Shown here piece after piece: positions 2,953 through 40,836 of a stretch of 64,000 nt of DNA. Every line of letters starts with the position of its first letter. Positions within the stretch are counted from its first letter, which is position 1. The translations under genes were made by a program, and so were the position numbers. A model generated the notes under the pieces. That model saw nothing but the letters and a program-made list of their open reading frames with translations. It was not told where the DNA came from and made no database searches. Source of the DNA: Halopenitus persicus (GTDB lineage: Archaea; Halobacteriota; Halobacteria; Halobacteriales; Haloferacaceae); the NCBI RefSeq assembly GCF_002355635.1, contig NZ_AP017559.1, forward strand, positions 62,001 through 126,000. The letters run 5' to 3'.

Positions 2953-3423
2953 AGCTCCGGAAACGGTGGAGGGGGTTGGTTCTCGTGAAGCTTCGGAAAC
3001 AGTGGAGGGAATGGATGTTGTGACTCGAAGAGCTACCTCAGCTGGTGATCTCAGTCTGCGATTGAGTCGAACAAAGCTCCGGAAATGGTGGAGTGGTCCA
3101 ACCTCCGAAAGCTCAGGAAACAGTGCTGTAGTTCGGTGGAGCAAATCGTACGGATGAACGAATATCGACTTACGATTTCTGAGTGCCACCACACCACTCC
3201 GTCAAGTGAAAACCGGATTGAGGGCTTCTCTACCAGTCGATATCTGATTCAAATCACAAAAAATATGATCGGTTCTTATCTAACAAAACTAATCGAATAA
3301 CCAGGCAGTTGTTTGGTAAGAAAATCCCTTCAGAGACGTTGTAATCTTGGCTCTCTGTGGTATCACGAATACCCGGGTCCTCCGATAATCATATAGCGAA
3401 AAGCTCCGGAAACAGTGGAGGGT
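2953..3423 (-). repeat. origin 1, right array of origin boxes
   Basis: Reverse-orientation copies of the origin 1 box (AGCTCCGGAAACAGTGGAGG type) lie at 2953-2976, 2989-3009, 3075-3096, about 3110-3126 (weaker) and 3402-3423. They point toward the orc1/cdc6 gene and complete the origin module. I see no gene between 2867 and 3557. Confidence 0.7.
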
Positions 3424-4387: not shown

Positions 4388-5442
4388 TAGTAGACATTAG
4401 AAATAATTGCTCACTTTTGGGAGCGACAGCTGGTCAAGAGCGGTATCGATCGCCGTCGTGAGTTCATCGAGCGAGTCAAAGAATCGGTTGCTCAGAGCGT
4501 CCTGGAGTTGTCGCCAGCACTCTTCGACAGGATTGAGTTCCGGCGAATACGCAGGTAACGTGACGAAGGCGAGGTCGTCACGGGCCGCCAGGTCCGTGAC
4601 GGCCGACGCCTGGAAGTACGACGCCCCATCTAGCACGACGATCAAGTCTTCTTCAAATTCTTTGCATAACGCGAGAATGAAATGTTTTGCGTGGTCGGCG
4701 GTGACGTACTCGGTGAACCGCGAGAAAAAGCAGTCACCGTTTTCGGTGACTGCGCCGAGTAGACACGTCCAGTCACGTTGGCCAGAGAGTTCGACGCTCG
4801 GCCGCGTGCCGCGCGGAAACCACGCGGCACGCGGCTCGACCTGGACAGATTTTTTCGTCTGATCGATACAGACTACTGTGGCGTCCATCTCCGCTCGCTT
4901 TTTTTGATCTCGTCGTGGAACTCTTCTTGGTCGGATTCTTCAGATTCAGCGGCTGTACGTCGAGGTTTTTGATAGCTGAGTCCAGCTTCTTTCAGCAACC
5001 GCCGACAACTCGGGGCAGAGTACTCGACGCCGTAGGTTTCTTCGAGAAATTCCTGAACGAGCGCCGGCGTCCACGCCGGCGCGTCGATCCCAACTTCCTC
5101 GGGCGGTTCATGAACAGTTCGTTCGAACTCTTTTTGCTGTGATTCTGAGAGCTTTCGTTTTCTCCCAGATCGATGAGCATCAGACACAGCTTGCTCAAAC
5201 GGTTCGTCCGTATCAAGTCGCATTAACCAGCTGTAGATCGTTCTTCGCCCGGTATCGTGCCACTCTGCAAGTTCGGTCTGCGTTACACCGTTTTTGTACG
5301 CAATCGCCGCTAACAACCGTTGAGTCGGCTTGTTTCCGTCAACATTGTCGAGGGCGTCTTGGAGTTCTTCGACGGAGATCTCGTCGAGATGATCCATTGA
5401 GTATAGCAACAGTCTTTGAGCGGAAAGTTCTAACGATTACTA
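4388..5442 (-). mobile_element. IS630-type element, copy 1 (1055 bp)
   Basis: Ends are imperfect inverted repeats (TAGTAGACATTAGAA and TAGTAATCGTTAGAA as read inward), flanked by TA on both sides (4386-4387, 5443-5444). TA duplication is typical of IS630/Tc1-mariner elements. Three further copies of exactly the same length lie at 5788, 9728 and 51219. The encoded proteins of copy 1 and copy 4 look identical. Confidence 0.92.
4397..5397 (-). CDS. IS630-type transposase, two frames (copy 1)
   Basis: The upstream frame (ATG at 5397) encodes ~174 residues with a helix-turn-helix (GVTQTELAEWHDTGRRTIYS). The downstream frame (4397-4888) encodes 163 residues with the DDE catalytic core: CIDQTKK, VVLDGASYF and SPELNPVEECW. 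They overlap in the -1 frame at an A7G run near the start of the second frame. A -1 ribosomal or transcriptional slip there would give a ~340-residue fused transposase, the normal length for the family. A separate product from the internal ATG is also possible. Nothing is visibly broken, so the copy is probably active. Confidence 0.88.
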
Positions 5443-5787: not shown

Positions 5788-6842
5788 TAGTAATCGTTAG
5801 AACTTTCCGCTCAGAAATTGTTGCTATACTCAATGGATCATCTCGACGAGATCTCCGTCGAAGAACTCCAAGACGCCCTCGACAATGTTGACGGAAACAA
5901 GCCGACTCAACGGTTGTTAGCCGCGATCGCGTACAAGAACGGTGTAACGCAGACCGAACTTGCAGAGTGGCACGACACTGGGCGAAGAACGATCTACAGC
6001 TGGTTGATGCGACTTGATACAGACGAACCGTTTGAGCACGCTGTTTCTGATGCTCATCGATCTGGGAGAAAACGAAAGCTCTCAGAATCACAGCAACAAG
6101 AGTTCGAACGAACTGTTCACGAACCCCCCGAGGAAGTCGGGATCGACGCGCCGGCGTGGACGCCGGCGCTCGTCCAAGATTTTCTCGAAGAAACCTACGG
6201 CGTTGAGTACTCTTACCCGAGTTGTCGGCGGTTGCTGAAAGAAGCTGGACTCAGCTATCAAAAACCTCGACGTACAGCCGCTGAATCTGAGGAATCCGAC
6301 CAAGAGGAGTTCCACGACGAAATTAAAAAAAGCGAGCGGAGATGGACGCCACAGTAGTCTGTATCGATCAGACCAAGAAATCCGTCCAGGTCGAGCCGCG
6401 TGCCGCGTGGTTTCCGCGCGGCACGCGGCCGAGCGTCGAACTCTCTGGCCAACGTGACTGGACGTGTCTACTCGGCGCAGTCACCGAAAACGGTGACTGC
6501 TTTTTCTCACGGTTCACCGAGTACGTTACCGCCGACCACGCGAAACATTTCATTCTCGCGTTATGCAAAGAATTTGAAGAAGATTTGATCGTTGTGCTAG
6601 ACGGAGCGCCGTACTTCCAGGCGTCGGCCGTCACGGAGCTGGCGGCCCGTGACGACCTCGCCTTCGTCACGTTGCCTGCGTATTCGCCGGAACTCAATCC
6701 TGTCGAAGAGTGCTGGCGACAACTCCAGGACGCTCTGAGCAACCGATTCTTTGACTCGCTCGATGAACTCACGACGGCGATCGATACCGCTCTTGACCAG
6801 CTGTCGCTTCCAAACGTGAGCAATTATTTCTAATGTCTACTA
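5788..6842 (+). mobile_element. IS630-type element, copy 2 (1055 bp)
   Basis: Same ends and length as copy 1 in opposite orientation, with TA at 5786-5787 and 6843-6844. The left neighbour is a gene fragment cut at its 5' side and the right neighbour is an aldehyde dehydrogenase also cut at its 5' side. The two flanks are therefore not halves of one gene, which points to a deletion or recombination at this copy. Confidence 0.92.
5833..6833 (+). CDS. IS630-type transposase, two frames (copy 2)
   Basis: Helix-turn-helix frame from ATG 5833 to 6357, and DDE frame 6342-6833 (CIDQTKK, VVLDGAPYF, SPELNPVEECW). They are joined by the same -1 shift at an A7 run near 6330. A few substitutions separate it from copies 1 and 4 (for example EHAVSD for EQAVSD and YSYPSC for YSAPSC). 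The reading frames are intact. Confidence 0.88.
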
Positions 6843-8111: not shown

Positions 8112-8931
8112 TCAGAGTGACCAGTCTACATTATGAACGAGACAGGCGATAGTGAGTTCACGGAACTGTTTCCACCAACGCCGTGAGCGAACAAACGCAC
8201 CGTACTTCCGCTTGAGCGTCGAGTTTACACTCTCAGATTGACTCCGTTGGCCGTAGAGATCAGCGTCTAAGCGAGCGTTCCATGCCTTGTGGAGCGCTGT
8301 GAACTCACGGTGCTTAATCAGTGGGCGAACCCCGTGGTGGCGGGCAAGTCGTCTGATTTTCTGGTCGTCATAGCCTTTGTCACCGAGCAGGATGTCAATA
8401 TGCTCGGGATTGCGCTCGATCAACGACGGGGCGATCTGGCTATCGTGTTTTCGTGTCGTCGTTATGTGTAGATCGAGAATTGCGTTCACCTTCGTATCTA
8501 CCAACAGCGTTTACTTTGAGCTGCTGAATCGTGAGCTCAGCCCGTTTCGTGTAGTGTTTTGAGGCGTGACTCCGGTCGAACCCTGACGCATCAACTCCAA
8601 CGATTCCACTCGTCGGAAGGAGCGTCGCTGAGAGAGTCAATATGACACAGACAGCCATGTCAAGCCGGTTAAACGCCTTACAGAGCGTTGATGGCGTAGG
8701 CAGTTCAACTAATCCAAGAGCGCGACGGATGCGTGACATCTCGATCAGTTCGTCAAGCAGGCCACGGTAAGTCGTGTTCTTCCGAACTTTGAGACACAGT
8801 AGAACAACGTGCTGCGGGAGTGTATAGCGGTGTTTTGAGAATTTCGAGGAGTATCGAGAGACGGCCCGGCGTGCCAGATGGATCGCCTTCTCAGTAAACC
8901 GGAGAATCTGCGACTTCGGGAGGGACTTCAT
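8112..8931 (-). pseudogene. IS5-family transposase with one frameshift (type A)
   Basis: The N-terminal frame (8440-8931, MKSLPKSQILRFTEKAIHL...) and C-terminal frame (8112-8504, ...LLGDKGYDDQKIRRLARHHG...) together give a full IS5-type DDE transposase (GVDASGFDR, GDKGYDD, LYGQRSQSESVNSTLKRKYG). One extra base near 8505 in the KVN/LVDT stretch breaks the frame. One terminus is recognisable at about 8963-8980, reading inward as GGCTCTGTTGAAATCCT; the other is unclear, near 8102. Decayed relatives lie at 40021 and 58110-59840. Confidence 0.8.
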
Positions 8932-9727: not shown

Positions 9728-10782
9728 TAGTAAACATTAGAAATAATTGCTCACGTTTGGAAGCGACAGTTGATCAAGAGCAGTATCGATCGCCGTCGTG
9801 AGTTCATCGAGCGAGTCAAAGAATCGGTTGCTCAGAGCATCCTGGAGTTGTCGCCAGCACTCTTCGACAGGATTGAGTTCCGGCGAATACGCAGGCAACG
9901 TGACGAAGGCAAGGTCGTCACGGGCCGCCAGATCCGTGACGGCCGACGCCTGGAAGTACGGCGCTCCGTCTAGCACAACGATCAAGTCTTCTTCAAATTC
10001 TTTGCATAACGCGAGAATGAAATGTTTTGCGTGCTCGGCGGTGACGTACTCGGTGAACCGTGAGAAAAAGCAGTCACCGTTTTCCGTGACTGCGCCGAGT
10101 AGACACGTCCAGTCACGTTGGCCAGAGAGTTCGACGCTCGGCCGCGTGCCGCGCGGAAACCACGCGGCACGCGGCTCAACCTGGACAGATTTTTTCGTCT
10201 GATCGATACAGACTACTGTGGCGTCCATCTCCGCTCGCTTTTTTTGATCTCGTCGTGGAACTCCTCTTGGTCGGATTCCTCAGATTCAGCGGCTGTACGT
10301 CGAGGTTTTTGATAGCTGAGTCCAGCTTCTTTCAGCAACCGCCGACAACTCGGAGAAGAGTACTCGACGCCGTAGGTTTCTTCGAGAAATTCCTGAACGA
10401 GCGCCGGCGTCCACGCCGGCGCGTCGATCCCAACTTCCTCGGGCGGTTCGTGAACAGTTCGTTCGAACTCTTTTTGCTGTGATTCTGAGAGCTTTCGTTT
10501 TCTCCCAGATCGATGAGCATCAGACACAGCTTGCTCAAGCGGTTCGTCCGTATCAAGTCGCATCAACCAGCTGTAGATCGTTCTTCGCCCGGTGTCATGC
10601 CACTCTGCAAGTTCGGTCTGCGTGACACCGTCCTTGTACGCGATCGCAGCTAACAACCGTTGAGTCGGCTTGTTTCCGTCAACATTGTTGAGGGCGTCTT
10701 GGAGTTCTTCGACGGAGATCTCGTCGAGATGATCCATTGAGTATAGTAACAATCTTTGAGCGGAAAGTTCTAACGATTACTA
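9728..10782 (-). mobile_element. IS630-type element, copy 3 (1055 bp)
   Basis: Same length and ends as the other copies, with TA at 9726-9727 and 10783-10784. The left end differs slightly (TAGTAAACATTAGAA). It abuts the start of the membrane-protein gene. Confidence 0.92.
9737..10737 (-). CDS. IS630-type transposase, two frames (copy 3)
   Basis: HTH frame from ATG 10737 and DDE frame 9737-10228, joined by a -1 shift at the A7 run. Intact catalytic residues are in CIDQTKK, VVLDGAPYF and SPELNPVEECW. It differs from the other copies by scattered substitutions only (for example DALNNVDGN). Confidence 0.88.
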
Positions 10783-16672: not shown

Positions 16673-16715
16673 CCTAACCAACAAATAGTGCTAATACCCG
16701 AAGTTGTTGGTTAGG
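16673..16715. promoter_or_regulatory. palindrome copy A, upstream of the polymerase
   Basis: Perfect 12-bp inverted repeat CCTAACCAACAA (16673-16684) / TTGTTGGTTAGG (16704-16715), half-sites 31 bp apart. A second copy (19042-19083) overlaps the stop of the same polymerase gene. The 16716-16882 stretch holds a likely TATA box (CTTATTAG, about 16836-16843) and no gene. Confidence 0.7.
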
Positions 16716-16882
16716 TGTTGCCAGTGATCCCGGAAATCATCCCGGAAGAGAAAGAGGACGCACAAACGACACAAAATAGAGTGTTAGAGAGGCTTTGACG
16801 CCATTCCGTTGAGGTTCGGAAACGACACGCATCGGCTTATTAGACACGCAATCGTCCAGTTTGGTAGAGGCGTGAGTCACAG

Positions 16883-19045
16883 ATGCCGTTCACTATTGAC
16901 TTCTTCGACGACGGGCACGTCCTCGAGTGGGAAGCTACCGCCGACGGCGCCGTCGCGACCGAGCGCGATGACTACTCCCCACGCTTCTACGTGGCCCCTC
17001 GTGACCCTGACGCCGACCTCGATCTCACGAGACTCCAGTCGGTGTACGACCAGCACCCGGACGTCGTTGCGACCGGGACGGTTGCACGACGACCCGGTTT
17101 CCGACGTGACGAGGAGGCCGTCCTCGCCGTCGACGTCGATCACATCAACCGCGTCACGCCACTCGCCCGGCAGGCACGTCAGCTAAACGCGTATCCAGTC
17201 GGGGACCTGGCGTGCTTCAACGTCGATTTCTCGCGAGAGTTTCGCTACTGTCTCGAGGAAGACGTCGATCCGACGCCAACAAGCGAGCTGTCGACGCTCC
17301 GACTCAGCGTCCCCGTGGTCGAAACGAGCAACGACACCTATGCCGAGCTGTCAGTCGCCGGCGACACCGTCACCGGCTCGCCCACGGATATCCTGACGGC
17401 AGTCCAGGCAGCACTCGATGATCAGAATCCGGATATCCTGGTCTGCTCGACAAGCGGGATCATCCCGACCCTGTACGAGATGGCCGCGGCCGCCGGCATC
17501 GACGAGTTCACGCTGAGTCGGTGGCCGGACGTCGACTACCAGCAGCTCGCGAGCCGGTCGACGTACTCGAGCTACGGCCGCGTCGGCCACTCGCCAGCAC
17601 GGTACAACGTCCCCGGGCGGGCGATCATCGACGAGTCGAACACGTTCTTTTACGGGGAGACGAACCTCGACGGCGTCCTCGACCTCGTGTCGCGCTCGAA
17701 AAAGCCAGTCCAGGAGCTCGCCTGGGCGTCGATCGGGAACGTCCTCACCGCCATCCAGATCTGCGAGGCCCACGACCGCGGCGTGCTCGTGCCGTGGAAC
17801 TCCTGGCGCCACGAGTTTTACAAGCCGATGGGGACGCTCCACGACGCCGACCGCGGCGGCTTCATCTTCGCGCCCGAGGTCGGCCTGCACGAGAACGTCC
17901 ACGAACTCGATTTTTCGAGCCTGTATCCGAACATCATCTGTACCCGGAACATCTCACCGGACGTCATCCGGTGTGATTGCCATCGCGACCGTGACGACGT
18001 CCACAGTCTCGGATACTCGATCTGCGACGACCGCGGATACCTCGTCGACGTACTGCAACCGATCATCGACGCTCGCGACGAGATCAAGGCGGCCATTCGT
18101 CGTGAGAAGGAACGGGACGACCCCGACGAGGACCGACTGGCGGAACTCGAGGGGCGGTCGGGAGCGCTGAAGTGGATACTTGTCGCCTGTTTCGGATATC
18201 AAGGGTTCAGCAACGCGAAGTTCGGCCGAATCGAATGTCACGAGGCGATCAACGCGTTCGCTCGCGAGATTTTGTTGACGGCAAAGCAACGACTAGAAGC
18301 CGGTGGGTGGCGGGTTGTTCACGGCATCGTCGACTCCATCTGGGTGACCCCGGACCCCGACGTCGACGATAACCGCGAGGACCTCGAGACGCTCGCGACG
18401 GAGATCACCGAACGCGTCGAGATTCGGCTCGAACACGAAGCCCGCTATGACTGGGTGGCGTTCGTTCCGCAGCGCGAGAGTGATGCCGGCGCGTTGACGA
18501 AGTACTTCGGGAAAGTCGCTGGTGCCGACGAGTTCAAAGTAAGAGGTATCGAAGCGCGGCAGCGCTCGACGCCACCGTTTATCGAGAAGTTCCAGCGGGA
18601 GTGCCTCGAGCGATTTGATGCGACCCGGTCACCGAAAGCAGTCCTCAATTCGCTCCGAGACGCAATCGACCGTCTGCACGCCGGCGAGGTCCCGATCGAG
18701 GATCTCGTCGAACGAAATCGTGTCTCCAAGCCGCTGGAAGGGTACACGCAGAACACCCAGAACGTGGCGGCGCTGAAGCGGGCTCGCGACCAGGATCTCG
18801 CTATGCATCCCGGACAGGATATCGAATACGTGGTCGTCGATGACGAGAAGACCTCGCGAGAACGGGTCGTGTTGGCCCACGAAGGGGTTGAGTCGTATGA
18901 TGCGTCATACTACGAGACGCAACTCGTTCGGGCGATCGAGAGTCTTCTGTCGCCGTTGGGCTGGAATCGCTCGAAAATCCGTCGAGAGCTCGCAGAGACA
19001 CGGGTGCCGGAGTTAACGGCGTTCGCGAACACGGAGAATGATTAA
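16883..19045 (+). CDS. polB: family B DNA polymerase, PolB2-like with altered motifs
   Basis: A 720-residue type B polymerase. Motif A, DFSSLYPNII (about residue 342), is intact, and motif B is recognisable (KWILVACFGYQGFSNAKFG, about 430). Motif C, normally YGDTDS, reads HGIVDS (about 480), so the first catalytic aspartate is missing. I find no clear exonuclease DxE motif in the N-terminal half. These losses are known for the archaeal PolB2 (Dpo2) group, long thought inactive and later linked to DNA damage tolerance. Its GC is higher than much of the window. It sits alone between two copies of the TTAACCAACA palindrome, which suggests joint regulation or transfer as a unit. Confidence 0.82.
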   Translation: MPFTIDFFDDGHVLEWEATADGAVATERDDYSPRFYVAPRDPDADLDLTRLQSVYDQHPDVVATGTVARRPGFRRDEEAVLAVDVDHINRVTPLARQARQLNAYPVGDLACFNVDFSREFRYCLEEDVDPTPTSELSTLRLSVPVVETSNDTYAELSVAGDTVTGSPTDILTAVQAALDDQNPDILVCSTSGIIPTLYEMAAAAGIDEFTLSRWPDVDYQQLASRSTYSSYGRVGHSPARYNVPGRAIIDESNTFFYGETNLDGVLDLVSRSKKPVQELAWASIGNVLTAIQICEAHDRGVLVPWNSWRHEFYKPMGTLHDADRGGFIFAPEVGLHENVHELDFSSLYPNIICTRNISPDVIRCDCHRDRDDVHSLGYSICDDRGYLVDVLQPIIDARDEIKAAIRREKERDDPDEDRLAELEGRSGALKWILVACFGYQGFSNAKFGRIECHEAINAFAREILLTAKQRLEAGGWRVVHGIVDSIWVTPDPDVDDNREDLETLATEITERVEIRLEHEARYDWVAFVPQRESDAGALTKYFGKVAGADEFKVRGIEARQRSTPPFIEKFQRECLERFDATRSPKAVLNSLRDAIDRLHAGEVPIEDLVERNRVSKPLEGYTQNTQNVAALKRARDQDLAMHPGQDIEYVVVDDEKTSRERVVLAHEGVESYDASYYETQLVRAIESLLSPLGWNRSKIRRELAETRVPELTAFANTEND

Positions 19046-19083
19046 CCAACACGAGGATCGTTTAGAGTGGATCTGTTGGTTAA
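19042..19083. promoter_or_regulatory. palindrome copy B, at the polymerase stop codon
   Basis: TTAACCAACA (19042-19051) and TGTTGGTTAA (19074-19083), half-sites 32 bp apart. The first half contains the TAA stop of the polymerase gene. Confidence 0.7.
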
Positions 19084-19311
19084 CCACAGTACCTAATTAC
19101 GAGGTAGAGCTCGTTCTAGCTGACGAAAGCGCACTTTCTCCCCCTTTGAGTGGGAAGTCATTCAACGCGAGACGGTATACGTGGGACGGTACCATAGATT
19201 ATAGAGATCTCAAGAAGTATCTACTTGTATCTCCCCGAGAATCACCGATTTATGTCGATCTTCGGTGGGTATCCTTGCAAAGATTTCTACTATAGATGTG
19301 ACGAACCCTCT

Positions 19312-19757
19312 CCCCCCTTTTTCGAGTTGTAAACTCGTGATGAAGGGGAGGGGGTAAACCCTAGAAAACATAGAACAACGGGTGATTATGGCAGATTCAC
19401 GTAATAGACGGACCTGAGCGTCTTATTCTACAACCTGTATCTATAAATGCGAAACTTTATGTTATATGTTTACTTACCACAACCGTAATAGAGCATAAGA
19501 AACAGATTATCCAGCTAAACTAGATAATTAACATCTCAGAGGATCCACGTCCTTCAGATCTAGTCTACGATTTCTTCTCCGTGTATTACGCCGGTTTAGC
19601 AGCTCTCTATAGGGTTTTGGTAATTGGTCTCTCTCTTCTCAGTGTCTTAGGTGGTCCATCTCCCGTGACTTACAACTCGAAAAAGGGGGGTGGGGGTAGC
19701 TATTCGAGAACTTCTTTAGCAAACACCGCCAATGCTTACTACTCGAAAACGGGGTGT
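19312..19757. repeat. origin 3, left boxes and AT-rich stretch
   Basis: Box consensus TTACAACTCGAAAACGGGG. A reverse copy lies at 19312-19332 and forward copies at 19669-19697 and 19735-19757. Between them, 19430-19560 is AT-rich. I see no convincing gene from 19084 to 19892. Confidence 0.7.
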
Positions 19758-20029
19758 GTGAGACGAACCGTTTTCTCCACACCATCATTCGAAAATTCCG
19801 AACTATGTGGCTCTGCTGAAACCCTTCGAGACAGACGACACTGGCGTACCGTACGCGTGTCTTTTAGAAAACCCGTCAACGTCTTCAACAAACTACTTGG
19901 ATAAATCGGCATAGAGTCGAGTCGCTCCACACTCCGGACAGAGGAACGCATAGAGCGGGGTTTGATGCCCAACACCGAGACGAACAAGTACACCACTGTC
20001 TCTCTCAGTTTCAACATAAAGGTCTCCGA

Positions 20030-20961
20030 TGCTCTATTGAAAATGCGGTAAGGAAGCGGGATCATAGTGTTTTGGCGAGCTTCTTGAGGTTGTTGAGCGC
20101 GAACGAGAGAATGATCTCACGGAACTGCCGGTACCAGAACTGCGAACGCAGGGCGGAGTCTTGCGTTCGCTTGACTGTTGAGTAGCTTGTTTCTGACATC
20201 CATCGCTGTGTGTAACCTTTTGCTCGGATGAGCGCGTTGTTGGCAACTGCTTTCGGAGTTGATCCACGGTAGTGAACGAGGTACTCAACGTCTAATGCGG
20301 CGATCTCGTATTCGGAGTACCAATCTTGGAACCCATTGTCGGCGGCAACGGCCCGCAGGTCGTCCGCGTTCCGGCGGACGACCCGCGGGCCAGCCTTGGT
20401 GTCGTGCTCACGCCCGATACAGCAGTGAACGTCCAATACTGCCAGCGACTCTGTATCGGTCAATGTCGTCGCTTTCACCGTCTTGATCGTCTGGCCTCGC
20501 CGCTGGCAATAGTACTGTGAGGCGTGGGATCGCTCGAAGAACGTGCTGTCGAGTGCGACGTGGCCAGATTGCGGGTGTTGCTGCGCAGAAACGCGCAGCA
20601 ACGCCCGCCAGATGTACATCTCGTATCGGTCAAACGAGTGGTAGAACGTGGTTGGATCGGGTGGAGCATCCGAGCTGATCCCAAGTCGGTCACACACGTC
20701 CGGCATGAGGCTGAGCCGATCTACAAGTTCGGCGTAGCTGTGGCCCTCTTCCTTCCGAATACAGTGTGCGGCGATGTGAGCCTCGCGGGCAAGCCCGCCC
20801 GAGTCGGGCTTGCCCGCTCGATTCTCCAACGCTTGTTTAGCTACACGTAGTGCTGTCTCAACGAGGTCGAGTAAAACGACGCCCATAATCGCCTTCTCGA
20901 CCTCATTTCCTCAAACCGTTACGGAAGGATCCCGTCGCTGTCTTCCATTTTCAATAGAGCA
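20030..20961 (-). mobile_element. IS5-family element (932 bp) with 8-bp target duplication
   Basis: Perfect 16-bp terminal inverted repeats TGCTCTATTGAAAATG / CATTTTCAATAGAGCA. The target GTCTCCGA is duplicated at 20022-20029 and 20962-20969. One intact transposase gene fills it. Confidence 0.92.
20062..20886 (-). CDS. IS5-family transposase
   Basis: A 274-residue DDE transposase with no visible defect. Catalytic landmarks are VALDSTFFERSHASQYY (first D), AVAADNGFQD (second D) and the KGYTQRWMSETSYSTVKR region with the final E. The N-terminal helical domain is QALENRAGKPDSGGLAREAH. The interrupted element at 45461-47505 encodes a close relative. It is probably mobile. Confidence 0.9.
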   Translation of the reverse strand: MGVVLLDLVETALRVAKQALENRAGKPDSGGLAREAHIAAHCIRKEEGHSYAELVDRLSLMPDVCDRLGISSDAPPDPTTFYHSFDRYEMYIWRALLRVSAQQHPQSGHVALDSTFFERSHASQYYCQRRGQTIKTVKATTLTDTESLAVLDVHCCIGREHDTKAGPRVVRRNADDLRAVAADNGFQDWYSEYEIAALDVEYLVHYRGSTPKAVANNALIRAKGYTQRWMSETSYSTVKRTQDSALRSQFWYRQFREIILSFALNNLKKLAKTL

Positions 20962-21393: not shown

Positions 21394-22893
21394 ATGGGAC
21401 GAGAGGGACGTGGAGCGGGATCGAATCATCCAGAAGATGATGGAGATCGTCAATCCTCCGTTGCTGATACTGAAAATTCTGAGTCAACAGGTGAGGATGT
21501 AGATTCGCCCGATACGTCACAAACGACGTTCGAGAACGACTCGGATCCCGCCGATTCGTCGCACGAAGTAGCTAACGGCGACGGTGGCGGCATTTCAATT
21601 CGTGATCGGCTACAAACAGAGTCGTCCGGTGGCGTCTTCGTGAACAAAGACCTCGTCCGGTCAGATACCATCATTGATGAGGATCGTATCGTCGGTCGTG
21701 ACGACCAGCTGGGTCGTGTCGTCGACAATCTGAAACCAGTCCTCCAGAATGAAGGCATCCCTGATATGCTCCTGAGTGGGCCGTCTGGAACCGGGAAATC
21801 GCTCATCATTCATGCAGTCTGCAAACAGATTGTCGAGCTGTGTGAATCTCAAGACAAGACATTCGGAGTTATCTCAATCAACTGCGAGGGGCCAAAGACT
21901 GCAGATCGGGCTGTTTATCGGTTAGTTAAAGCTGCTGCGGACGATCTTGGTGTCGAACCCGGTGTTCCTCAAACTGGTGTCTCAACGGACCAGAAACTTG
22001 AGCGACTGTACGAGCTGATGCGTGAGTACTACGGCGGTGTCATCTTCATTCTTGATGAAATTGATATGCTTGAGGGTCCCTATCAGGAGGCAGAGTACAA
22101 CTCCCTCATCTACCAGCTTTCACGGGCGCGAAAACTCGCCGATTTTGATGGCCCGATCTCACTCACGGCCATCACGAATTATGCCGATTTTATGAGGGAT
22201 CTCAACAGCCGCGCACAGAGCTCCTATAATCCTGATGATATTTTCTTCGACGATTACGATGCGACGCAGCTCCGTAGTATCCTCAAAAATAGACGAGATG
22301 CCTTCGAGCCAGAATCACTTGCAGATGACGTCATTCCGCTTGTTGCCGCGTTCGGGTCCCAAACGCACGGAGATGCGCGAAAAGCGATTGATCTCCTCAG
22401 ATGGGCTGGCGAATTAGCCGAGCGTCGTGGGGCTGACAGGGTTACCGAGACCGACGTCCGTGAAGCCCAAGAAAAATACACCGAAAATCGCAAACTCCGC
22501 CATATCAGCGGGACTTCGACTCAAAAGAAACTGTCCATCTACGCCGTGGCGGCGACTGCCAGCTGCGCAAGGGAACATCCTGAGTGGATCCCTGCTGGTC
22601 CTGCGTTCAAAGCGTACCAATTCATTGCTGATACGATGGACACGGAACAGTACAGTCGCGAGACGTTTGTAAATCACGTCACTGAGCAGAGTACGTACGG
22701 CGTGTTGGACTTCGAACGTCGAGGCAAAGGTCGAGGCAGAGGAGTGCATATGTATTTCTCCCTCTCCGAAGATCCGGAAACAATTATGGAGACGATTCGT
22801 GAGGATTCGCGATTCGAAGATCTAGCTCACGAAGAGGCGACTATCAGCGCGGTTGTTCGTGAACGGCTGAAGCAGTTCCGGAGCAAGAACTGA
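21394..22893 (+). CDS. cdc6: Orc1/Cdc6 replication initiator 3
   Basis: A 499-residue AAA+ initiator. The first ~85 residues are an acidic, low-complexity extension (SVADTENSESTGEDVDSPDT). The AAA+ core follows: GPSGTGKS (about 129-136), Walker B IFILDEID (about 217-224), ITNYADFM near sensor 1, and FGSQTHGDARKAIDLLRWAGE in the lid. The C-terminal winged helix starts near STQKKLSIYAVAA. It is clearly a different lineage from initiators 1 and 2. Boxes of a third family flank it on both sides. Its ATG follows a TATA-like element by ~25 bp, so the transcript may be leaderless. Confidence 0.9.
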   Translation: MGREGRGAGSNHPEDDGDRQSSVADTENSESTGEDVDSPDTSQTTFENDSDPADSSHEVANGDGGGISIRDRLQTESSGGVFVNKDLVRSDTIIDEDRIVGRDDQLGRVVDNLKPVLQNEGIPDMLLSGPSGTGKSLIIHAVCKQIVELCESQDKTFGVISINCEGPKTADRAVYRLVKAAADDLGVEPGVPQTGVSTDQKLERLYELMREYYGGVIFILDEIDMLEGPYQEAEYNSLIYQLSRARKLADFDGPISLTAITNYADFMRDLNSRAQSSYNPDDIFFDDYDATQLRSILKNRRDAFEPESLADDVIPLVAAFGSQTHGDARKAIDLLRWAGELAERRGADRVTETDVREAQEKYTENRKLRHISGTSTQKKLSIYAVAATASCAREHPEWIPAGPAFKAYQFIADTMDTEQYSRETFVNHVTEQSTYGVLDFERRGKGRGRGVHMYFSLSEDPETIMETIREDSRFEDLAHEEATISAVVRERLKQFRSKN

Positions 22894-23149: not shown

Positions 23150-23311
23150 TGAGGTCTGCCCGACATAATCTTACTTGCCGATACACCCCGTCATCGAAGT
23201 GTAAATACGCTCAAACGGATTGCATTAGCGGCTGATACCCAGATTCCTATTGAAACTGCGCCGGTCAGATCTGTCGCAATACTCGGTGAACCTGCTATTC
23301 GTCCGGGTTGA
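23150..23311 (+). pseudogene. orphan C-terminal gene fragment
   Basis: A coding-like frame ending at TGA 23309-23311 reads PDIILLADTPRHRSVNTLKR, then IALAADTQIPIETAPVRSVA. A short stretch in another frame upstream (DVVVLVAILPHLLTAGYDGN) may belong to the same decayed gene. I do not recognise the family. It overlaps the end of the DUF6788-like gene on the other strand. Confidence 0.3.
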
Positions 23312-23615
23312 CCGGGCTCTTATACTTAGAGCGGATTTTTTCGCCATCTCGCCACTGCCAGTAGTAATAGCGATTGCCGTCGATCTCTTTGATCGTAATC
23401 GTCGCTTTGGTAGGAACGTCGTCCGGAAGGTCATCTGGTCGCTCCTCGACTTCTTCCTGATCTGCCGACTTCTCGAGACGGGCCTCACGTTCCTTGTGCT
23501 CAGCTAGCGCTTCGGCGTATGTAGCAATGTCTCGAAGCTGCTCCGGAGTCGACTCGTTGAGCGTGTTGACGATCTCCGTCGGGAGTTTCGCCGGTGGGGT
23601 CGGGGGGTCGTAGGA
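23295..23615 (-). CDS. DUF6788-like small protein, second member
   Basis: About 106 residues from MSYDPPTPPAKL (ATG 23615). An N-terminal helix (LPTEIVNTLNESTPEQLRDI) is followed by a charged linker (LEKSADQEEVEERPDD) and a C-terminal strand module KATITIKEIDGNRYYYWQWR. It matches the architecture of the 477-824 protein but lacks its cysteine motif. The frame is open to 23645, which lies inside the palindrome, so I prefer 23615. Two decayed copies of its start region lie beside the same palindrome at 28190 and 40700. Confidence 0.6.
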   Translation of the reverse strand, partial: SYDPPTPPAKLPTEIVNTLNESTPEQLRDIATYAEALAEHKEREARLEKSADQEEVEERPDDLPDDVPTKATITIKEIDGNRYYYWQWRDGEKIRSKYKSPVNPDE

Positions 23616-23632
23616 CATCGGCTGCTCTCGTG

Positions 23633-23673
23633 TTAACCAACACAACCTGCTAATCCATAGATTTGTTGGTTAA
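23633..23673. promoter_or_regulatory. palindrome copy C, divergent promoter region
   Basis: TTAACCAACA (23633-23642) / TGTTGGTTAA (23664-23673), 31 bp apart, 18 bp upstream of the DUF6788-like start. The following ~60 bp, including CTGTAACA and a TATA box near 23721-23735, closely resemble those after copy D (28221), so the conserved unit is longer than the palindrome. Confidence 0.75.
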
Positions 23674-23829: not shown

Positions 23830-26800
23830 ATGTTTATCTTACATGCGGTCACGGACGATTGCGGGAAAATATACCTCTGGGCAGAGGATTCGACACTTCC
23901 TCCTTTGCGACCAAAGGAACAGAACTCGGCAGTAGACCCGAAAGGTGGAGAGAAGCATCCGTTTGCCGTTGATAAGCAGACTCTCAACGATCTTCTATCA
24001 TATGCGGGGTATGGAAACGCAAATACGGAGCTGACCACTCTCACAGTCTATTTACCGTCAGGCCGAGCTAATCCTCAGCCATCTCCATCAATTCGGGAAG
24101 AAGACGGACAAGAGACTACGACATCACTCACTCCGTGGCTCATTCCAGCAGTGGAAGTTGATATGAGAGATGCTCCATCGATCCTCTCGTATCTTTCGCA
24201 GTCATCTTCAACCGATGAGGAGACGAGTAGTTACGGAGAAAATCCGATCAAATCGGGACAGACGGTCAACTACTGGTCTGCTGTTTGCTCTGTAGCAGAG
24301 TCGTATGTTGAAGCCGGGCGGGTTGCACCACACCTCGCAGAAAAGGATGGATCCGTTACCGGTGTTTGGCGCGCGTTTCCCTCTAGGGAAGCGGATATTG
24401 ATCGGCTTATGGAGCTGATGGAAGCGATGCCACCGCTCGCACGGACATCCGTAGAGGTCGGATCGAATCCCACCCTCGACCGTGGATCCCCCAATGACTC
24501 AATCGGTCGTTCCTCAAGAGACGTCTTGACGCGCGCACTGGACCAGATGGTTAATGCGCTGTCGAAAGAACACTTGTCCGCGACTGAGACGGACTTGACC
24601 ACGGACGACTTGGAAGCGATCCATCAACAGTGGATCCGCACGCTTCAAAAGAACGGGGAGCCGATCGATGCTGCTCCCGAGGCGATTGATGAACTTCGAG
24701 AGCAACTCGACGAGTGGACACGACCTCCCGTGACGGGGGATGAGCAAGAAGTCAGGCTCTGTTTCCAACTGAAAGAGCCGGCAGTGGACACTGGGGCGGT
24801 GGTCTCGGAGACGAAGACCGAACCGATCGTACCTGACGGCTGGACACTCGAACTGCTCCTGCAATCCGAGAACGATCCGAGCCTCGTTGTCGAGGCAAAC
24901 GAGTTGTGGGGCTCGGATCGCTCGACGGAGAAAATACTCGCACGCCATCTCGACCAACCCACTGAGATACTGAAAAACGAACTGGAGCGCGCGTCCGCGC
25001 TATATCCGCGACTCAAGGAGGCACTCGACCAATCGAATCCGACCGCGATCGAGTTATCGAACAGCGATGCCGACGAATTCCTACAGGAATATGCAGAAGT
25101 TCTCCGGCAAGCAGGATTTGGGGTGATTCTTCCAAGCTGGTGGGGGGATCCGCCGCAACGACTTGGTGCTCGGCTGGTTGTCTCTGACGCCGCCGACGAG
25201 TTTGAGACTACCGGTAGCGGTCTGGGAATTGAACAGCTGTGTGAGTTCGACTGGGAGATCGTTCTCGGGGAGAACAGTCTCTCCAAAGAAGAGTTGGAAG
25301 AATTATCCACGCTCAAACAATCGCTCGTACACTTCCAGGGAAAGTGGGTCTCAGTACAGGACGATGACGCCAAATCGGCGAGAGACCTCCTCCATCGTGA
25401 AGAAGAACGTACTCTTGAGGAAGCGCTTCAAGCGGATACTGAGATTAGCGACGACGGGGTTAGCCTCCCGGTCGTCGAAAAGAGATTAGAGGGAACGTTC
25501 AAAAAGTTGTTCGAGCAGGATTTTGAGATATGGGTCGAGGAAATAGACACCCCGTCTGGGTTTGACGGGGAGTTGCGCTCGTATCAGAAAACGGGCCTAG
25601 GCTGGATCTCGTATCTGGAAGATCACGGCTTTGGTGGCTGTCTGGCGGACGATATGGGTCTTGGAAAGACGATTCAGATACTCGCTCGTCTCGTTCAGGA
25701 ACGTTCGGTTGATCCCTTAGTTGGCACGACACTTGTAGTGTGTCCGTTGTCTGTGGTGTACAACTGGAAAAGCGAAGCGAACGAGTTCACACCAGAACTG
25801 ACGGTACATATTCACCACGGCCAAGGTCGAATGTCGGGAGATGACCTTGCCAACGCCATAGAACACCACGACGTAATCATTACTACGTACGGGACGGCGA
25901 GAAGCGATATCGAACAACTACGAGACATTCAATTCCATAGGATCGTTCTCGATGAGGCACAGAAAATCAAAAACACGTCAGCCGGTCGTACACAAGCGAT
26001 TAGGTCGCTGTCGGGCCATCATCGGTTGGCGTTAACTGGAACTCCTGTCGAGAATCGGTTGAGTGAACTGTGGTCCATTATGGAGTTCTGTAACCCCGGA
26101 CTGCTCGGCTCCGAGAGACAGTTCAGAAACGCCTTTTCTCGGCCTATTGAGGAACGGGGGGACATCGAAAAGACGGAACAGCTCAGACAACTCATACGCC
26201 CCTTCGTGTTGCGGCGTGAGAAAACGGATGACTCGATAATCGACGACCTTCCAGAGAAATCAGAGAAAAAGGAATACTGCAGACTCACTGAAGAACAAGC
26301 AACTCTATACAAGGCAGTAGCTGATGAAATCTTTGGGCAAATTGAGCAGTCCCGGGATATCGAACGAAGGGGGCAGATTCTGAAGCTGATTGGCAATCTA
26401 AAATCGATTTGTAACCACCCACGTCAGTATCTTAACGACGATCAGCGTATCAGTGGTCGGTCGGGTAAGCTTGACGTCCTTGATGACATTGTCCAGAAGA
26501 TAGCAGCTAATGGCGAGAAGGGACTGATATTCACCCAATACACCCAGATGGCGGAGCTGCTGTTAGAACACTTACGAGGTCAAGGCTATCGCGTGTTCTA
26601 CCTCTATGGGGAGACAGCGAAGGAGGAACGGGAAGAGATGATTGACGAATTTGAGAACGCTGAGGGATCCTGTTTCTTCTTGTTATCACTGCATGCTGGT
26701 GGCACCGGGATCAATCTCACACCGGCTAACTACGTTATCCACTATGACCGGTGGTGGAATCCTGCCGTCGAAAAGCAAGCAACTGACCGAGCGTATCGGA

Positions 26801-26994
26801 TTGGGCAGGACAATAACGTACAGGTATACAAACTGATTTGTCGAGGAACGATCGAAGAATCGATTGACCAAATTATTGAGAGCAAGCGTGACTTAGCAGA
26901 ACAGGTACTGGTTGATAGCGACGAGTGGATGACTGAACTATCGGATGAAGAGCTTCGCAACCTCGTTTCGTTATCAGTAGACTCTCTAGTATGA
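23830..26994 (+). CDS. SNF2-family helicase (HepA/SWIM-associated type)
   Basis: A 1054-residue ATP-driven DNA translocase. Residues ~1-580 are the long N-terminal region of the bacterial and archaeal SWIM-associated SNF2 group. The motor follows: DDMGLGKT (about 605-612), motif II DEAQ (about 707), LTGTPVENRLSELWS, then RecA-like domain 2 with LHAGGTGINLTPANYVIHYD and QATDRAYRIGQ. No nuclease domain is visible. Such proteins remodel protein-DNA complexes and often occur with a SWIM zinc-finger partner. Here the next gene, overlapping by 4 bp, has only a SWIM-partner-like tail plus HhH repeats. Its promoter region is next to palindrome C. Confidence 0.92.
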   Translation: MFILHAVTDDCGKIYLWAEDSTLPPLRPKEQNSAVDPKGGEKHPFAVDKQTLNDLLSYAGYGNANTELTTLTVYLPSGRANPQPSPSIREEDGQETTTSLTPWLIPAVEVDMRDAPSILSYLSQSSSTDEETSSYGENPIKSGQTVNYWSAVCSVAESYVEAGRVAPHLAEKDGSVTGVWRAFPSREADIDRLMELMEAMPPLARTSVEVGSNPTLDRGSPNDSIGRSSRDVLTRALDQMVNALSKEHLSATETDLTTDDLEAIHQQWIRTLQKNGEPIDAAPEAIDELREQLDEWTRPPVTGDEQEVRLCFQLKEPAVDTGAVVSETKTEPIVPDGWTLELLLQSENDPSLVVEANELWGSDRSTEKILARHLDQPTEILKNELERASALYPRLKEALDQSNPTAIELSNSDADEFLQEYAEVLRQAGFGVILPSWWGDPPQRLGARLVVSDAADEFETTGSGLGIEQLCEFDWEIVLGENSLSKEELEELSTLKQSLVHFQGKWVSVQDDDAKSARDLLHREEERTLEEALQADTEISDDGVSLPVVEKRLEGTFKKLFEQDFEIWVEEIDTPSGFDGELRSYQKTGLGWISYLEDHGFGGCLADDMGLGKTIQILARLVQERSVDPLVGTTLVVCPLSVVYNWKSEANEFTPELTVHIHHGQGRMSGDDLANAIEHHDVIITTYGTARSDIEQLRDIQFHRIVLDEAQKIKNTSAGRTQAIRSLSGHHRLALTGTPVENRLSELWSIMEFCNPGLLGSERQFRNAFSRPIEERGDIEKTEQLRQLIRPFVLRREKTDDSIIDDLPEKSEKKEYCRLTEEQATLYKAVADEIFGQIEQSRDIERRGQILKLIGNLKSICNHPRQYLNDDQRISGRSGKLDVLDDIVQKIAANGEKGLIFTQYTQMAELLLEHLRGQGYRVFYLYGETAKEEREEMIDEFENAEGSCFFLLSLHAGGTGINLTPANYVIHYDRWWNPAVEKQATDRAYRIGQDNNVQVYKLICRGTIEESIDQIIESKRDLAEQVLVDSDEWMTELSDEELRNLVSLSVDSLV

Positions 26995-27980
26995 CCCGAT
27001 CTAATAGACATATCGTCGACAGTGAGGAGACCAATCAGGACTCACGAAAGCTGAGTGTGATGTGGTGGAGATATCGATTTTCCGCCACAAACGCATCAGT
27101 TGAGGGTGTGAATGATTCGTTCGAAGAACCTCTTGACGAATTCTGGACTGGGCTACCTGAGAAGTATGAGGTCCCTTCAGTGGATGCTGAAGAGGATGAA
27201 CAGACGAAATTAGCATCACTCGGTGCTCCACCAGAGGGATTCAGTCGGGCTTTTGAGATGGCAAATCGGCTCCACGAGAAAATCCAAGAGCCACAGAGAT
27301 ATCAGACTCAATTCACACCGGAAACGTCTATCAGCACCGTAGTGGACGAGATTCCACGTGCAGGACCGATTATCGTAACGAATCTGGAAAACGAGGGTTA
27401 CGAGACACTCGGTGATCTGGAGAGAATTACCAATAGCGAATTAATGAGCGTGAACCGAGTTGGAACGGAAACGGCAGAGCGGTTGATTGAGTTCACCCAG
27501 AATCAGATACCGAGGGATCGAGATTGGAATCGGGCAAGCGACCGATCAGCTATCTCGGACGATGTTGCACTCCACAAGATTTCGGATCAGATCCCCGGAT
27601 TCGGAGACATCAGTCGAAAGAAGATCGAAAAAGCAGGATATGAGACTGTAGGAGACGTACGTGCTGCAACGGCTAATGAACTAACTGACATTAAACAGAT
27701 TGGCGAAGGGACTATTTCGAAACTTTTGGACTACATAGAAAATCACTCAGGGAAACCTACTTCAATAGCAGATAAACAGATACCAGACGATACTCCGATA
27801 GAAGATTTCGCGGCAGATGTTCCGAGAGTGGGACGGGTGTTGATCTCTAAATTGACTCAGGAAGGGTATGAGACGGTAGGTGATCTTCGTACTGCGACCA
27901 TTAAGGACCTGACCAACGTCGAGAATATCGGTGAAAAGAAGGCAGAATCTCTTTTGGAACACGCTAATTTGAGGGGGTAG
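26991..27980 (+). CDS. triple helix-hairpin-helix protein with SWIM-partner-like N-terminus
   Basis: A 329-residue protein translationally coupled to the SNF2 gene (ATGA overlap). Residues ~111-165, 193-248 and 270-326 are three related HhH units, each with a pattern like GYETVGDLRTAT...L..V..IG...A..LL, and should bind DNA backbone non-specifically. Residues ~40-95 (EPLDEFWTGLPEKYE...LASLGAPPEGF) resemble the segment that follows the zinc finger in SWIM proteins found beside SNF2 helicases. The CxC...CxH finger itself is absent. It probably acts as the DNA-binding partner of the helicase. Confidence 0.75.
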   Translation: MTRSNRHIVDSEETNQDSRKLSVMWWRYRFSATNASVEGVNDSFEEPLDEFWTGLPEKYEVPSVDAEEDEQTKLASLGAPPEGFSRAFEMANRLHEKIQEPQRYQTQFTPETSISTVVDEIPRAGPIIVTNLENEGYETLGDLERITNSELMSVNRVGTETAERLIEFTQNQIPRDRDWNRASDRSAISDDVALHKISDQIPGFGDISRKKIEKAGYETVGDVRAATANELTDIKQIGEGTISKLLDYIENHSGKPTSIADKQIPDDTPIEDFAADVPRVGRVLISKLTQEGYETVGDLRTATIKDLTNVENIGEKKAESLLEHANLRG

Positions 27981-28220: not shown

Positions 28221-28261
28221 TTAACCAACACTACCCACGAAACAATAGTTTTGTTGGTTAA
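28221..28261. promoter_or_regulatory. palindrome copy D
   Basis: TTAACCAACA (28221-28230) / TGTTGGTTAA (28252-28261), 31 bp apart. It is followed by CTGTAACA and a TATA box (about 28312-28325) that fits leaderless transcription of the regulator from its GTG at 28345. Confidence 0.75.
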
Positions 28262-28344
28262 GACGATGGTGGCAGTTCTCGCGACCGCTGTCTGTAACAC
28301 TACTCGAAACTTTTTTATATAGTAGTTTCGTACTATGTTACATC

Positions 28345-29268
28345 GTGCTCCGGCGCATCGAACTCGAGGCCCTCGCCATCGTCGACCGCGGCGACACGAT
28401 CTCCGATCTCGCAACGAAGCTCGACCACAGCGAGAGCTACCTCTCCCGTGCCGTCGGCGACCTCGTCGAGAAGGGGCTCGTCTACACGGAACGCGACGGC
28501 CGCCGAAAACGAGTCGTTCCGTCGGATGCTCGCGCCGTCGAACTCTATCAGGACCTCGTCCGCCAGCACTCCCACATCGACTTCCCCGAGCTGCTGACCG
28601 GCAAGGCACTCGAGGTGCTGTACTACCTCGACCACCCGCGGACCGTCTCCGAAATCGCCGACCGGAGTGACAACTATCGCAACACGGTCAACCGCGCCCT
28701 CAAGCGGTTTCGCGACCGGGGTCTCGTCAGGACGGACGACGGCTGCTATGACTTCAACGCCGACTTCGACCGCCTTCACGAGTTCGCACGTGAACTCGCA
28801 CACCATCTGCATCGCCAACGCCTCGAAGCCGTCGCCCCGAAGGGCACGATTCTCTGGGAGGACTACGACGACTTCCTTGCCCAGGCCGAGACGGAGATCG
28901 ATGCGGAGGGGTTCTACGAAACGGGTCTCGCTCGATTCACAGCCTTCGACCTCCAGTTCCTGCTCACGGGCCACCGCTACTACTTCTACTCCGAGGGACT
29001 CGACGCAATCTCGCCGGCGAAACTCTGCTGTCACACCCTCTTGATCGACGACGGCAGCCGCTACCGCTCGTACTGTCTCCTCCTGCTCAGCCACGTCGAT
29101 GTCGACGAAGAGGTTCTCCGAGAGCAGGCGGTGAAGTATGGCCTCGAAGACGAAATCGACGCCTTGCTCCGCTACCTCGAGACGCAGGGGGAGGTCGACG
29201 ATGATCGGCTCCGGGAGTGGGACGAGTTCCAGAAGCTGGCGGCTGACTACGGGGTGCGACTATCCTGA
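28345..29268 (+). CDS. winged-helix regulator with large C-terminal domain
   Basis: A 307-residue protein. Residues ~1-65 are a winged helix (TISDLATKLDHSESYLSRAV, GLVYTERDGRRKRVVP), and a second winged-helix-like unit follows (ALEVLYYLDHPRTVSEIADR). The remaining ~170 residues (FTAFDLQFLLTGHRYYFYSE...) are not a family I can name; they recall antitoxin-type regulators such as AbiEi only loosely. I use the GTG at 28345 because a TATA box lies ~25 bp upstream. A broken partial duplicate lies at 32506-32645. The PIN/AbrB pair on the opposite strand follows directly. Confidence 0.7.
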   Translation: MLRRIELEALAIVDRGDTISDLATKLDHSESYLSRAVGDLVEKGLVYTERDGRRKRVVPSDARAVELYQDLVRQHSHIDFPELLTGKALEVLYYLDHPRTVSEIADRSDNYRNTVNRALKRFRDRGLVRTDDGCYDFNADFDRLHEFARELAHHLHRQRLEAVAPKGTILWEDYDDFLAQAETEIDAEGFYETGLARFTAFDLQFLLTGHRYYFYSEGLDAISPAKLCCHTLLIDDGSRYRSYCLLLLSHVDVDEEVLREQAVKYGLEDEIDALLRYLETQGEVDDDRLREWDEFQKLAADYGVRLS

Positions 29269-29305: not shown

Positions 29306-29740
29306 TTAGTTCGGATCGTAGGGATCCGTTGCTGTATCGAGTCGATAGACATCCTCGACAGCGTCAAAATCGTCGTCAAACGCATACAGGTACCCGAGCC
29401 CCTCGGTTTGCATATACGCGACAATGCAGGCATCGACGAAGGAGAGGGGTTCGTGTTGCCGAAAGAGGGCCTTCCCCGTCGCGAGAGCGTCGGTGGTGAG
29501 TGAGTCAATGTGGAAGCGGGCGTTTTCTTCGATTCGATCGAGGAGATCGACGGCTGCGTCGTGGCCGGCGTGGGTCGTGAGGCCGTTGAGTGTTTCCGCG
29601 AGAACGTAGTCGAGGACGACCGCCTCCGGGAGCGTTCCATTGTCGATGCCTTGGAGTATGGGAAGCGCGGCATCGTGAGATCCATCCTGCCGGTATGCGG
29701 CGGCAAAAAGGACTGTCGTATCGATGAGTGCACGTGGCAT
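29306..29740 (-). CDS. PIN-domain toxin (VapC-like)
   Basis: A 144-residue PIN ribonuclease. Acidic residues are in ALIDTTVLF (residue ~6), the ETLNGL glutamate and LSFVDACIVAYM, ending with YLYAFDDDFD. It starts with ATG directly after the TAA of the AbrB-type gene, so the two are one operon. The toxin would cut RNA when the unstable antitoxin is lost. Confidence 0.8.
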   Translation of the reverse strand: MPRALIDTTVLFAAAYRQDGSHDAALPILQGIDNGTLPEAVVLDYVLAETLNGLTTHAGHDAAVDLLDRIEENARFHIDSLTTDALATGKALFRQHEPLSFVDACIVAYMQTEGLGYLYAFDDDFDAVEDVYRLDTATDPYDPN

Positions 29741-29992
29741 TTACTCGACGTCGACGCCCCAGGCGTCGTGGTCGCTCGTCACATCGGTCGGCTCTTCACC
29801 AGCGTAGCCGTCGAAGTCGGCGAACGTGCCTGTTTGCTGTTGGATAACTTGGACCCGGATACTCCCGTCATCTTCGAGATGCCAGCGGAGCTGATCACCG
29901 TCGTCGATATCGAGTTCACGTCGAATCCGGGCAGGAATGTTTGCTTGGTTTCCCGACACCTTGCTTTCGGCGTCGATTCTGTCGCTGCTCAT
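29741..29992 (-). CDS. AbrB-family antitoxin
   Basis: An 83-residue protein with the swapped-hairpin AbrB/SpoVT fold signature SKVSGNQANIPARIRRELDI followed by DGDQLRWHLEDDGSIRVQVI, and an acidic tail that would bind the toxin. I start at 29992 (MSSDRIDAESK), because the upstream extension to 30040 is not coding-like. It neutralises the PIN protein and probably represses the operon. Confidence 0.78.
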   Translation of the reverse strand: MSSDRIDAESKVSGNQANIPARIRRELDIDDGDQLRWHLEDDGSIRVQVIQQQTGTFADFDGYAGEEPTDVTSDHDAWGVDVE

Positions 29993-38696: not shown

Positions 38697-38735
38697 TTAA
38701 CCAACAAATGATGGTTAGGGGTGAATGTTGGTCAA
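38697..38735. promoter_or_regulatory. palindrome copy E
   Basis: TTAACCAACA (38697-38706) / TGTTGGTCAA (38726-38735), half-sites 29 bp apart with one mismatch. It lies 4 bp beyond the stop of an ArdC-like fragment, much as copy B sits at the polymerase stop. Confidence 0.55.
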
Positions 38736-40699: not shown

Positions 40700-40775
40700 C
40701 TACTCTGAAGAGTGCCCGTTAAGCGTATCGACGATGCCTGTCGAGAGTTCCGCCAGCGACATCGGTGGTTCGTAG
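40700..40775 (-). pseudogene. DUF6788-like gene remnant
   Basis: The minus strand reads ISYEPPMSLAELSTGIVDTL, NGHSSE, stop. This parallels MSYDPPTPPAKLPTEIVNTL of the 23295-23615 gene, with ATG changed to ATA, and lies next to palindrome F. Confidence 0.55.
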
Positions 40776-40796
40776 GATATTAGCAGTCGCCTTGTA

Positions 40797-40836
40797 TTAA
40801 CCAACACCAGAAATGGAGAAAGGATTCGTAGGTTAA
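40797..40836. promoter_or_regulatory. palindrome copy F (degenerate)
   Basis: TTAACCAACA (40797-40806) / CGTAGGTTAA (40827-40836), half-sites 30 bp apart. The right half is mutated. It keeps its place upstream of a DUF6788-like remnant. Confidence 0.5.

Follow-up and report, generated by a model that had tools for sequence, protein, structure and literature searches.

The locus under study holds a PolB2-like polymerase gene with a copy of the same palindrome at either end, raising the question of whether the two copies delimit a cassette that is moved as a unit or whether they serve the control of genes. Throughout, the window denotes the whole stretch of DNA that was analyzed, 64,000 nucleotides, which is part of contig C2 (138 kb) in a haloarchaeal genome of 3.1 Mb. 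The polymerase and its surroundings comprise the following features.

16673-16715: palindrome copy A, arms CCTAACCAACAA (16673-16684) and TTGTTGGTTAGG (16704-16715) around a 19-nt loop, 168 bp 5' of the polB start
16883-19045, plus strand: polB, type B DNA polymerase (Pfam PF00136; NF004418, 1411 bits)
19042-19083: palindrome copy B, arms TTAACCAACA (19042-19051) and TGTTGGTTAA (19074-19083), bordering a putative replication origin
19305-19758: repeats CTTACAACTCGAAAA..GGGGGG (repeat families D1, I2 and I12)
20062-20886: IS5-type transposase, between copy B and orc1
21394-22893, plus strand: Orc1/Cdc6 replication initiator gene (TIGR02928)

Direct reading of the sequence bears out the preliminary description in that copies A and B flank polB at these coordinates, that copy A, upstream of the gene, is perfect over 12 bp per arm, and that the polB stop codon TAA (19043-19045) lies within the left arm of copy B. 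The assignment to the family B polymerases likewise stands, the gene matching NF004418 over its full length (residues 1-715 of 720) at 1411 bits against a curated cut-off of 692. We take the repeats at 19305-19758 to be probable origin recognition boxes, and copy B would mark the boundary between polB and the origin.

Copies A and B represent two of six clear palindrome sites in the window, where the other copies and their neighbors are arranged as follows.

23295-23618, minus strand: unannotated gene of a 107-aa protein, proposed DNA-binding regulator reading the palindrome
23633-23673: palindrome around the 107-aa gene promoter, at the same time 5' of the SNF2 gene
23830-26994, plus strand: SNF2-family helicase, possible target
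26991-27980, plus strand: helix-hairpin-helix (HHH) protein of the SNF2 operon
28221-28261: palindrome 5' of the HVO_2833-type regulator, bordered on the left by a residual 107-aa gene start (minus strand)
28345-29268, plus strand: double winged-helix regulator (HVO_2833_C), possible target
38697-38735: palindrome with one mismatch and a spacer of 19
40797-40836: decayed palindrome with two mismatches; adjacent minus-strand remnant of a 107-aa pseudogene at about 40703-40781

The pattern ACCAACA-N10..35-TGTTGGT occurs at five places in the window (16677, 19045, 23636, 28224 and 38700) against a mean of 0.00 in 100 dinucleotide shuffles, and with up to four mismatches allowed in the 20 arm bases, the decayed copy at 40797-40836 and a doubtful one at 3276 (four mismatches) are added, the reversed window yielding 0. 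Genome-wide there are eight exact-core sites, six on C2 and two on contig C1 (0 in the reversed control), and the C2 site at 36971 comes after a truncated second polB. Elsewhere in the window, paired ORFs, about 163 and 179 aa long, recur at 4397-5409, 5818-6833, 8440-8931, 9737-10752 and 51252-52264, probably as copies of one insertion sequence.

According to the preliminary description, polB could be such a movable cassette, with the palindromes as recombination ends between which genes move or excise. Beyond the bracketing of polB itself, this is favored by a single rearrangement: relatives have the order 107-aa gene, site, HVO_2833-type gene, and the window instead has 107-aa gene, site, SNF2 and HHH genes, site, HVO_2833-type gene, the sole site-bounded case that resembles a cassette. 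The duplicated stretch at this segment is however longer than the palindrome, and ordinary homologous recombination is therefore enough to account for it. Homology breaks in the flanks were also more frequent at sites than elsewhere (0.81 versus 0.65) as long as the sites of the 107-aa and HVO_2833-type genes were included, an excess that we attribute to one conserved gene facing varied neighbors; once these were removed, the rates equaled those of other intergenic points (0.49 versus 0.48 for pairs, 0.41 versus 0.38 per flank). Matches to polB are present in 117 of 170 genomes, and among the 30 best loci, for which the flanks were inspected, an upstream site within 400 bp is present in 9, a site at the 3' end in 23 and both in only 6 (polB is miscalled in L350, where the site at 3659 likewise fits the 3' position). 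Thus, polB often occurs without the palindrome pair, the result named beforehand as speaking against a cassette. Moreover, spacers vary freely among non-orthologous sites, although a recombinase core would be conserved, and the letters of the sites go with a protein subtype. With breakpoint rates at background and polB flanks rarely paired, we rejected a site-specific recombination cassette, which we regard as highly improbable; the palindromes are better read as copies of a control site than as ends of a movable cassette.

As single sites, those at polB recur in relatives. In loci with a reliably called start, the upstream site is 162-183 bp away from it, and the copy-B-type site is in several relatives followed by about 0.8-1.2 kb of noncoding DNA with an origin-box-like motif and then orc1, while other relatives have a different gene downstream and yet retain the site.

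The consensus palindrome, TTAACCAACA-N21/22-TGTTGGTTAA, is present in the window, on the same plasmid, on the chromosome, on haloarchaeal plasmids and in some haloviruses. Sites of the pattern TAACCAACA-N16..25-TGTTGGTTA (type I) were recovered in 133 of 170 family genomes, with a maximum of 28 per genome, and the reversed-pattern control gave 0 in each genome. A scan of species genomes returned at least 119 stretches with the motif, nearly all haloarchaeal by title among the matches listed, and five bacterial loci (L071, L076, L099, L115 and L116), likely matched by chance, were excluded from the context counts. In IMG/VR, 49 of 75 motif stretches are of haloarchaeal composition, with spacers of 20-23 except for one of 13; the remaining 26, with spacers scattered from 18 to 25, probably include chance matches. 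Of 280 distinct sites, 215 have a spacer of 21 or 22 (120 and 95, respectively), the peak of the length distribution; the spacer is near random in sequence, and the arm reads TTAACCAACA, of which the inner nine letters were fixed by the search pattern and the outer T, left free, is conserved at 93-96%. A spacer of 21-22 places the half-sites about 30-31 bp apart, that is three helical turns, as expected for a protein pair on one face of the helix. Each palindrome may hence be pictured as a two-half-site operator, built of two inverted half-sites of 10 bp each, set about three turns of the helix apart, with copies A and B as two members of a dispersed operator set.

A candidate reader is suggested by the commonest neighbor of the sites, the gene of the 107-aa protein, which adjoins 41 of 286 sites, 38 of them at 4-23 bp before its ATG (14 bp in the window). 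The spacer of these self-sites is AT-rich only on the promoter-upstream side (70% AT, against 35% downstream; n=39, p=7e-8), indicating that the arms flank a TATA-like element. One arm would then lie 5' of the TATA-like spacer and the other near the transcription start, and since the self-site encloses the core promoter, binding should repress the 107-aa gene. Close orthologues (E<=1e-30) are encoded in 105 of 170 genomes, all 105 of which have sites, against 28 with type I sites among the 65 genomes without one (median number of sites 9 versus 0), a co-occurrence that is partly circular because each orthologue brings its own site. The family is found in 222 plasmid records. A moderate AlphaFold2 model (pLDDT 76, pTM 0.43) predicts helices at residues 14-22 and 25-53 and strands at 73-79, 82-91 and 94-100, giving an N-terminal part made of helices and a C-terminal sheet of three beta-strands; in alignments the C-terminal three-strand block carries YYYWQWREG..S.YK.PV. 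Searches gave no match to ParB or any solved family among PDB sequences at E<=0.01, nothing in the PDB fold search with the model at E<=0.001, no match in Pfam for the family member L153 and none in NCBIfam for the window protein. Arm-type integrase DNA-binding domains, at ranks 8 and 50 of the fold search, were set aside as too weak.

Joint change of protein and palindrome is a stronger test than co-occurrence. Diverged homologues are accompanied, at the same position, by palindromes of the same layout in other letters (TTACCCCACA, TTACCTAACA and CTAACCCACA). The letters differ by homologue, with CTAACCAACA for G162 and G159, TTACCCCACA for type II (six genomes), CTAACCCACa for G008 and TTACCTAACA for G058. 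The half-site of the family, viral members included, reads TTAnCnnACA. Type II sites, TTACCCCAC..GTGGGGTAA, occur in 20 of 170 genomes (maximum 14 per genome), including 15/15 of the genomes with the type II protein (E<=1e-39) and 5/155 of the others; per genome, type I and type II sites go with type I and type II proteins, respectively. A blind search for palindromes before the start (arms of about 10 bp, spacer of about 18-26, end within 35 bp of the start, score >=9) succeeded for 18 of 23 diverged homologues, which are not independent as several type II members are near relatives, versus 9 of 1230 control genes. No palindrome of score >=9 was present in this geometry for the other five, namely G102 (score 8, imperfect arms), G022, G010 and two copies of G017. 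Separately, the G017/G010 subfamily (L280, L282 and L292) displays an altered C-terminal block, YAYWQWRSEPD, and the arms of its TACCCCACA palindrome are separated by only about 8 nt; the palindrome geometry seems to change with the protein there.

From these sequence patterns, we infer that the 107-aa protein very probably reads the palindrome, by direct binding. Alternatively, the sites could be read by another protein, such as the HVO_2833-type double winged-helix regulator or a host factor, the 107-aa gene being merely the commonest target. The HVO_2833-type gene does often share a site divergently, and sites are present in 98 of 108 genomes with an HVO_2833 match versus 35 of 62 without. 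Its occurrence across genomes nevertheless disfavors this regulator as the binder: G006 has a close match (1.4e-175) and zero sites, there is no match at 1e-40 in G005 and G020 despite their 4 and 6 sites, respectively, and the TATA of its own gene lies between the arms of a different palindrome. Viruses that have sites yet lack the 107-aa gene would equally fit another reader. Among viral records with type I sites, only 1 of 48 encodes a homologue (E<=0.001; 1 of 30 in the subset of haloarchaeal composition), which, as do the 28 of 65 orthologue-free genomes with type I sites, counts against the 107-aa protein. The sites of these viruses may be under a plasmid-encoded regulator or may be recognized by another protein. 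However, over five operator classes and phiH1/phiCh1, the 107-aa gene was the only one seen to vary together with the palindrome, and we hold a different reader to be quite improbable. The palindrome flanking the TATA of the HVO_2833-type gene, TGTAACAcTACTCGAAACTT .. AGTTTCGTACTATGTTACA (window 28293-28342), is kept in relatives and is probably that regulator's own operator. Beside the same gene, two small minus-strand ORFs (window 29306-29992) likely represent a VapBC-like toxin-antitoxin pair, the same neighborhood of pNRC200 being annotated as AbrB-like and PIN domain.

We favor the palindrome as the operator of the 107-aa family, with self-repression, a reading that we consider probable. 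The family consists of small proteins encoded on haloarchaeal plasmids and some haloviruses, with the window member at 23295-23618, and would bring further operons under the same control from the copies between them, namely those of polB, the T4SS, SRAP/DUF262, an ArdC-linked gene and plasmid Orc/AAA genes. The context of the 286 sites, taken from our own gene finder, was tandem in 159, divergent in 49, convergent in 37, inside a gene in 23 and at an edge in 18. Without the sites of the 107-aa gene, only 2 of 167 plasmid and chromosome sites fall inside genes (versus 76% of random points), gap orientations differ little from background, and in 59 of 132 tandem cases the site begins at most 20 bp from the stop codon of the preceding gene. 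Thus, the sites are strictly intergenic, yet not all are plain promoter operators. The genes 3' of sites encode the 107-aa protein (41), HVO_2833-type regulators (13), Orc/AAA (10), DUF7342 (10), DUF6610 (9), SRAP (5) and ArdC-like proteins (5), and more rarely polB, integrases, PDDEXK and UvrD proteins. At non-self targets, a TATA-like word is found in 40 of 159 site-to-start stretches, 0 of them within the spacer, and the spacers of non-self tandem sites have no AT asymmetry. Repression at these other targets appears more likely than activation, an expectation that would extend to polB, and the earlier idea that one protein silences polB through both sites is close to the reading favored here. 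As an observation of its own, a T-rich word followed by a GC-rich hairpin (e.g. GCGCCCGCCGAGGGGCGGAGGCGC) stands 20-60 bp 3' of sites and before the next start in L238, L236, L142, L062, L244, L050 and others, possibly as a second shared promoter or leader element.

Maps of named elements illustrate this dispersal. On pJ7-1 (96 kb), the five sites are located at the stop of an ArdC-like gene, 55 bp ahead of the next gene; between a divergent HVO_2833-type/NTase pair and a 107-aa gene; 5' of a three-gene polB operon; in the DUF262/SRAP gap; and in the gap between xseB and the transfer (T4SS) operon. On pHTS96, a site precedes an operon encoding VirB4 and primase. Plasmid pNRC200 of Hbt. salinarum NRC-1 has seven exact-core sites and the 107-aa protein VNG_RS11815, whose own site (L375, 11940-12000) retains the spacer and right arm and is devoid of the left arm, probably lost through insertion; judged by its sequence, this site is a natural operator mutant. 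Viral homologues are PhiH1_250 of phiH1, PhiCh1_230 of phiCh1 and ChaoS9_240 of ChaoS9, termed 'uncharacterized' in the accessible parts of the halovirus papers PMC6471424 and PMC6210493. The ChaoS9 palindrome has the type I letters, and those of phiCh1 and phiH1 are TTATCAAACA. In phiCh1, CCTTATCAAACA..TGTTTGATAAGG ends at the ATG of the homologue, and a second copy lies 72 bp from the ParA start; in phiH1, CCTTATCAAACA..TGTTTGATAAGG precedes the start of the operon, its spacer contains GATTTAATAGG, and transcript T8 is annotated as starting in the right arm.

In all three viruses the homologue lies within a few kb of parA in the lysogeny region (L386/L387 and that of ChaoS9), which, with the second phiCh1 palindrome, hints at a partition role. 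The sites could then mainly serve partition or origin control, the protein being a ParB/KorB-like centromere-binding factor and transcription control secondary, congruent with copy B at the polB-origin edge, with the ChaoS9 site at the end of orc1 and with the many sites at gene ends, either right beside a stop codon or in the gap of a convergent gene pair. On the other hand, the mapped pJ7-1 and pHTS96 sites adjoin transfer, SRAP and polB operons, with no parA beside a site in the pieces read, the self-site encloses a promoter, and the PDB sequences offered no ParB or other solved family. We thus regard partition or origin control as the main function as unlikely.

Returning to the operator reading, we would tentatively propose that a family of archaeal master regulators of mobile elements uses a code that can be read in the DNA (TTAnCnnACA, with three letters set by subtype) and governs conjugative plasmids and tailed viruses, and that viruses with type I sites and no gene of their own are adapted to, or shut down by, a regulator that a resident plasmid encodes. 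If so, unrelated elements in one cell would share or fight over one switch. On the operator reading alone, one small unannotated family would set when polymerase, conjugation and defence-related operons are on, pointing to a hidden control system common to archaeal plasmids and viruses. The type I/type II operator pairs make specificity testable by swapping, and 'hypothetical protein' genes of model strains, such as pNRC200 VNG_RS11815 and PhiH1_250, gain a concrete hypothesis. To our knowledge, few plasmid-wide control systems have been characterized in haloarchaeal plasmids and proviruses, and in the open-licence literature we found no description of the palindrome/107-aa system, only the locus tags of homologues in the halovirus papers.

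Several known systems bear comparison. In the CUP/ArdK regulon of IncN plasmids, a repeated upstream element puts anti-restriction and related operons under one plasmid repressor; protein and operator differ from those described here, and the host is bacterial. The viral family phrog_22659, of unknown function and with no operator attached, matches G058 (E 9e-18), G162 (1.4e-4) and ChaoS9-type members (1.1e-5), and not the window protein. RepR of phiH1/phiCh1 is similarly a repressor of an archaeal extrachromosomal element from the same lysogeny region, but is a gene separate from PhiH1_250, and ChaoS9 is without RepR yet has the 107-aa homologue, as far as the accessible parts of PMC6471424 and PMC6210493 describe. 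The closest likeness is to KorB, with KorA, of the IncP-1 plasmid RK2, according to the accessible part of PMC11790492 a plasmid-encoded regulator with dispersed palindromic operators and replication and transfer targets, whose operators lie both next to promoters and at distances of 45 to >1000 bp from them. KorB belongs to the ParB-type CTPases and acts with KorA on a 16-bp operator, in contrast to a protein of about 107 aa and two 10-bp arms 21-22 bp apart, and neither Pfam (for L153), NCBIfam nor the PDB sequences (E<=0.01) place the 107-aa protein in the KorB/ParB family. The pJ7-1 and pHTS96 maps do show the KorB-type trait of dispersed sites next to replication and transfer operons, and by analogy the 107-aa system may work like KorB from outside that family.
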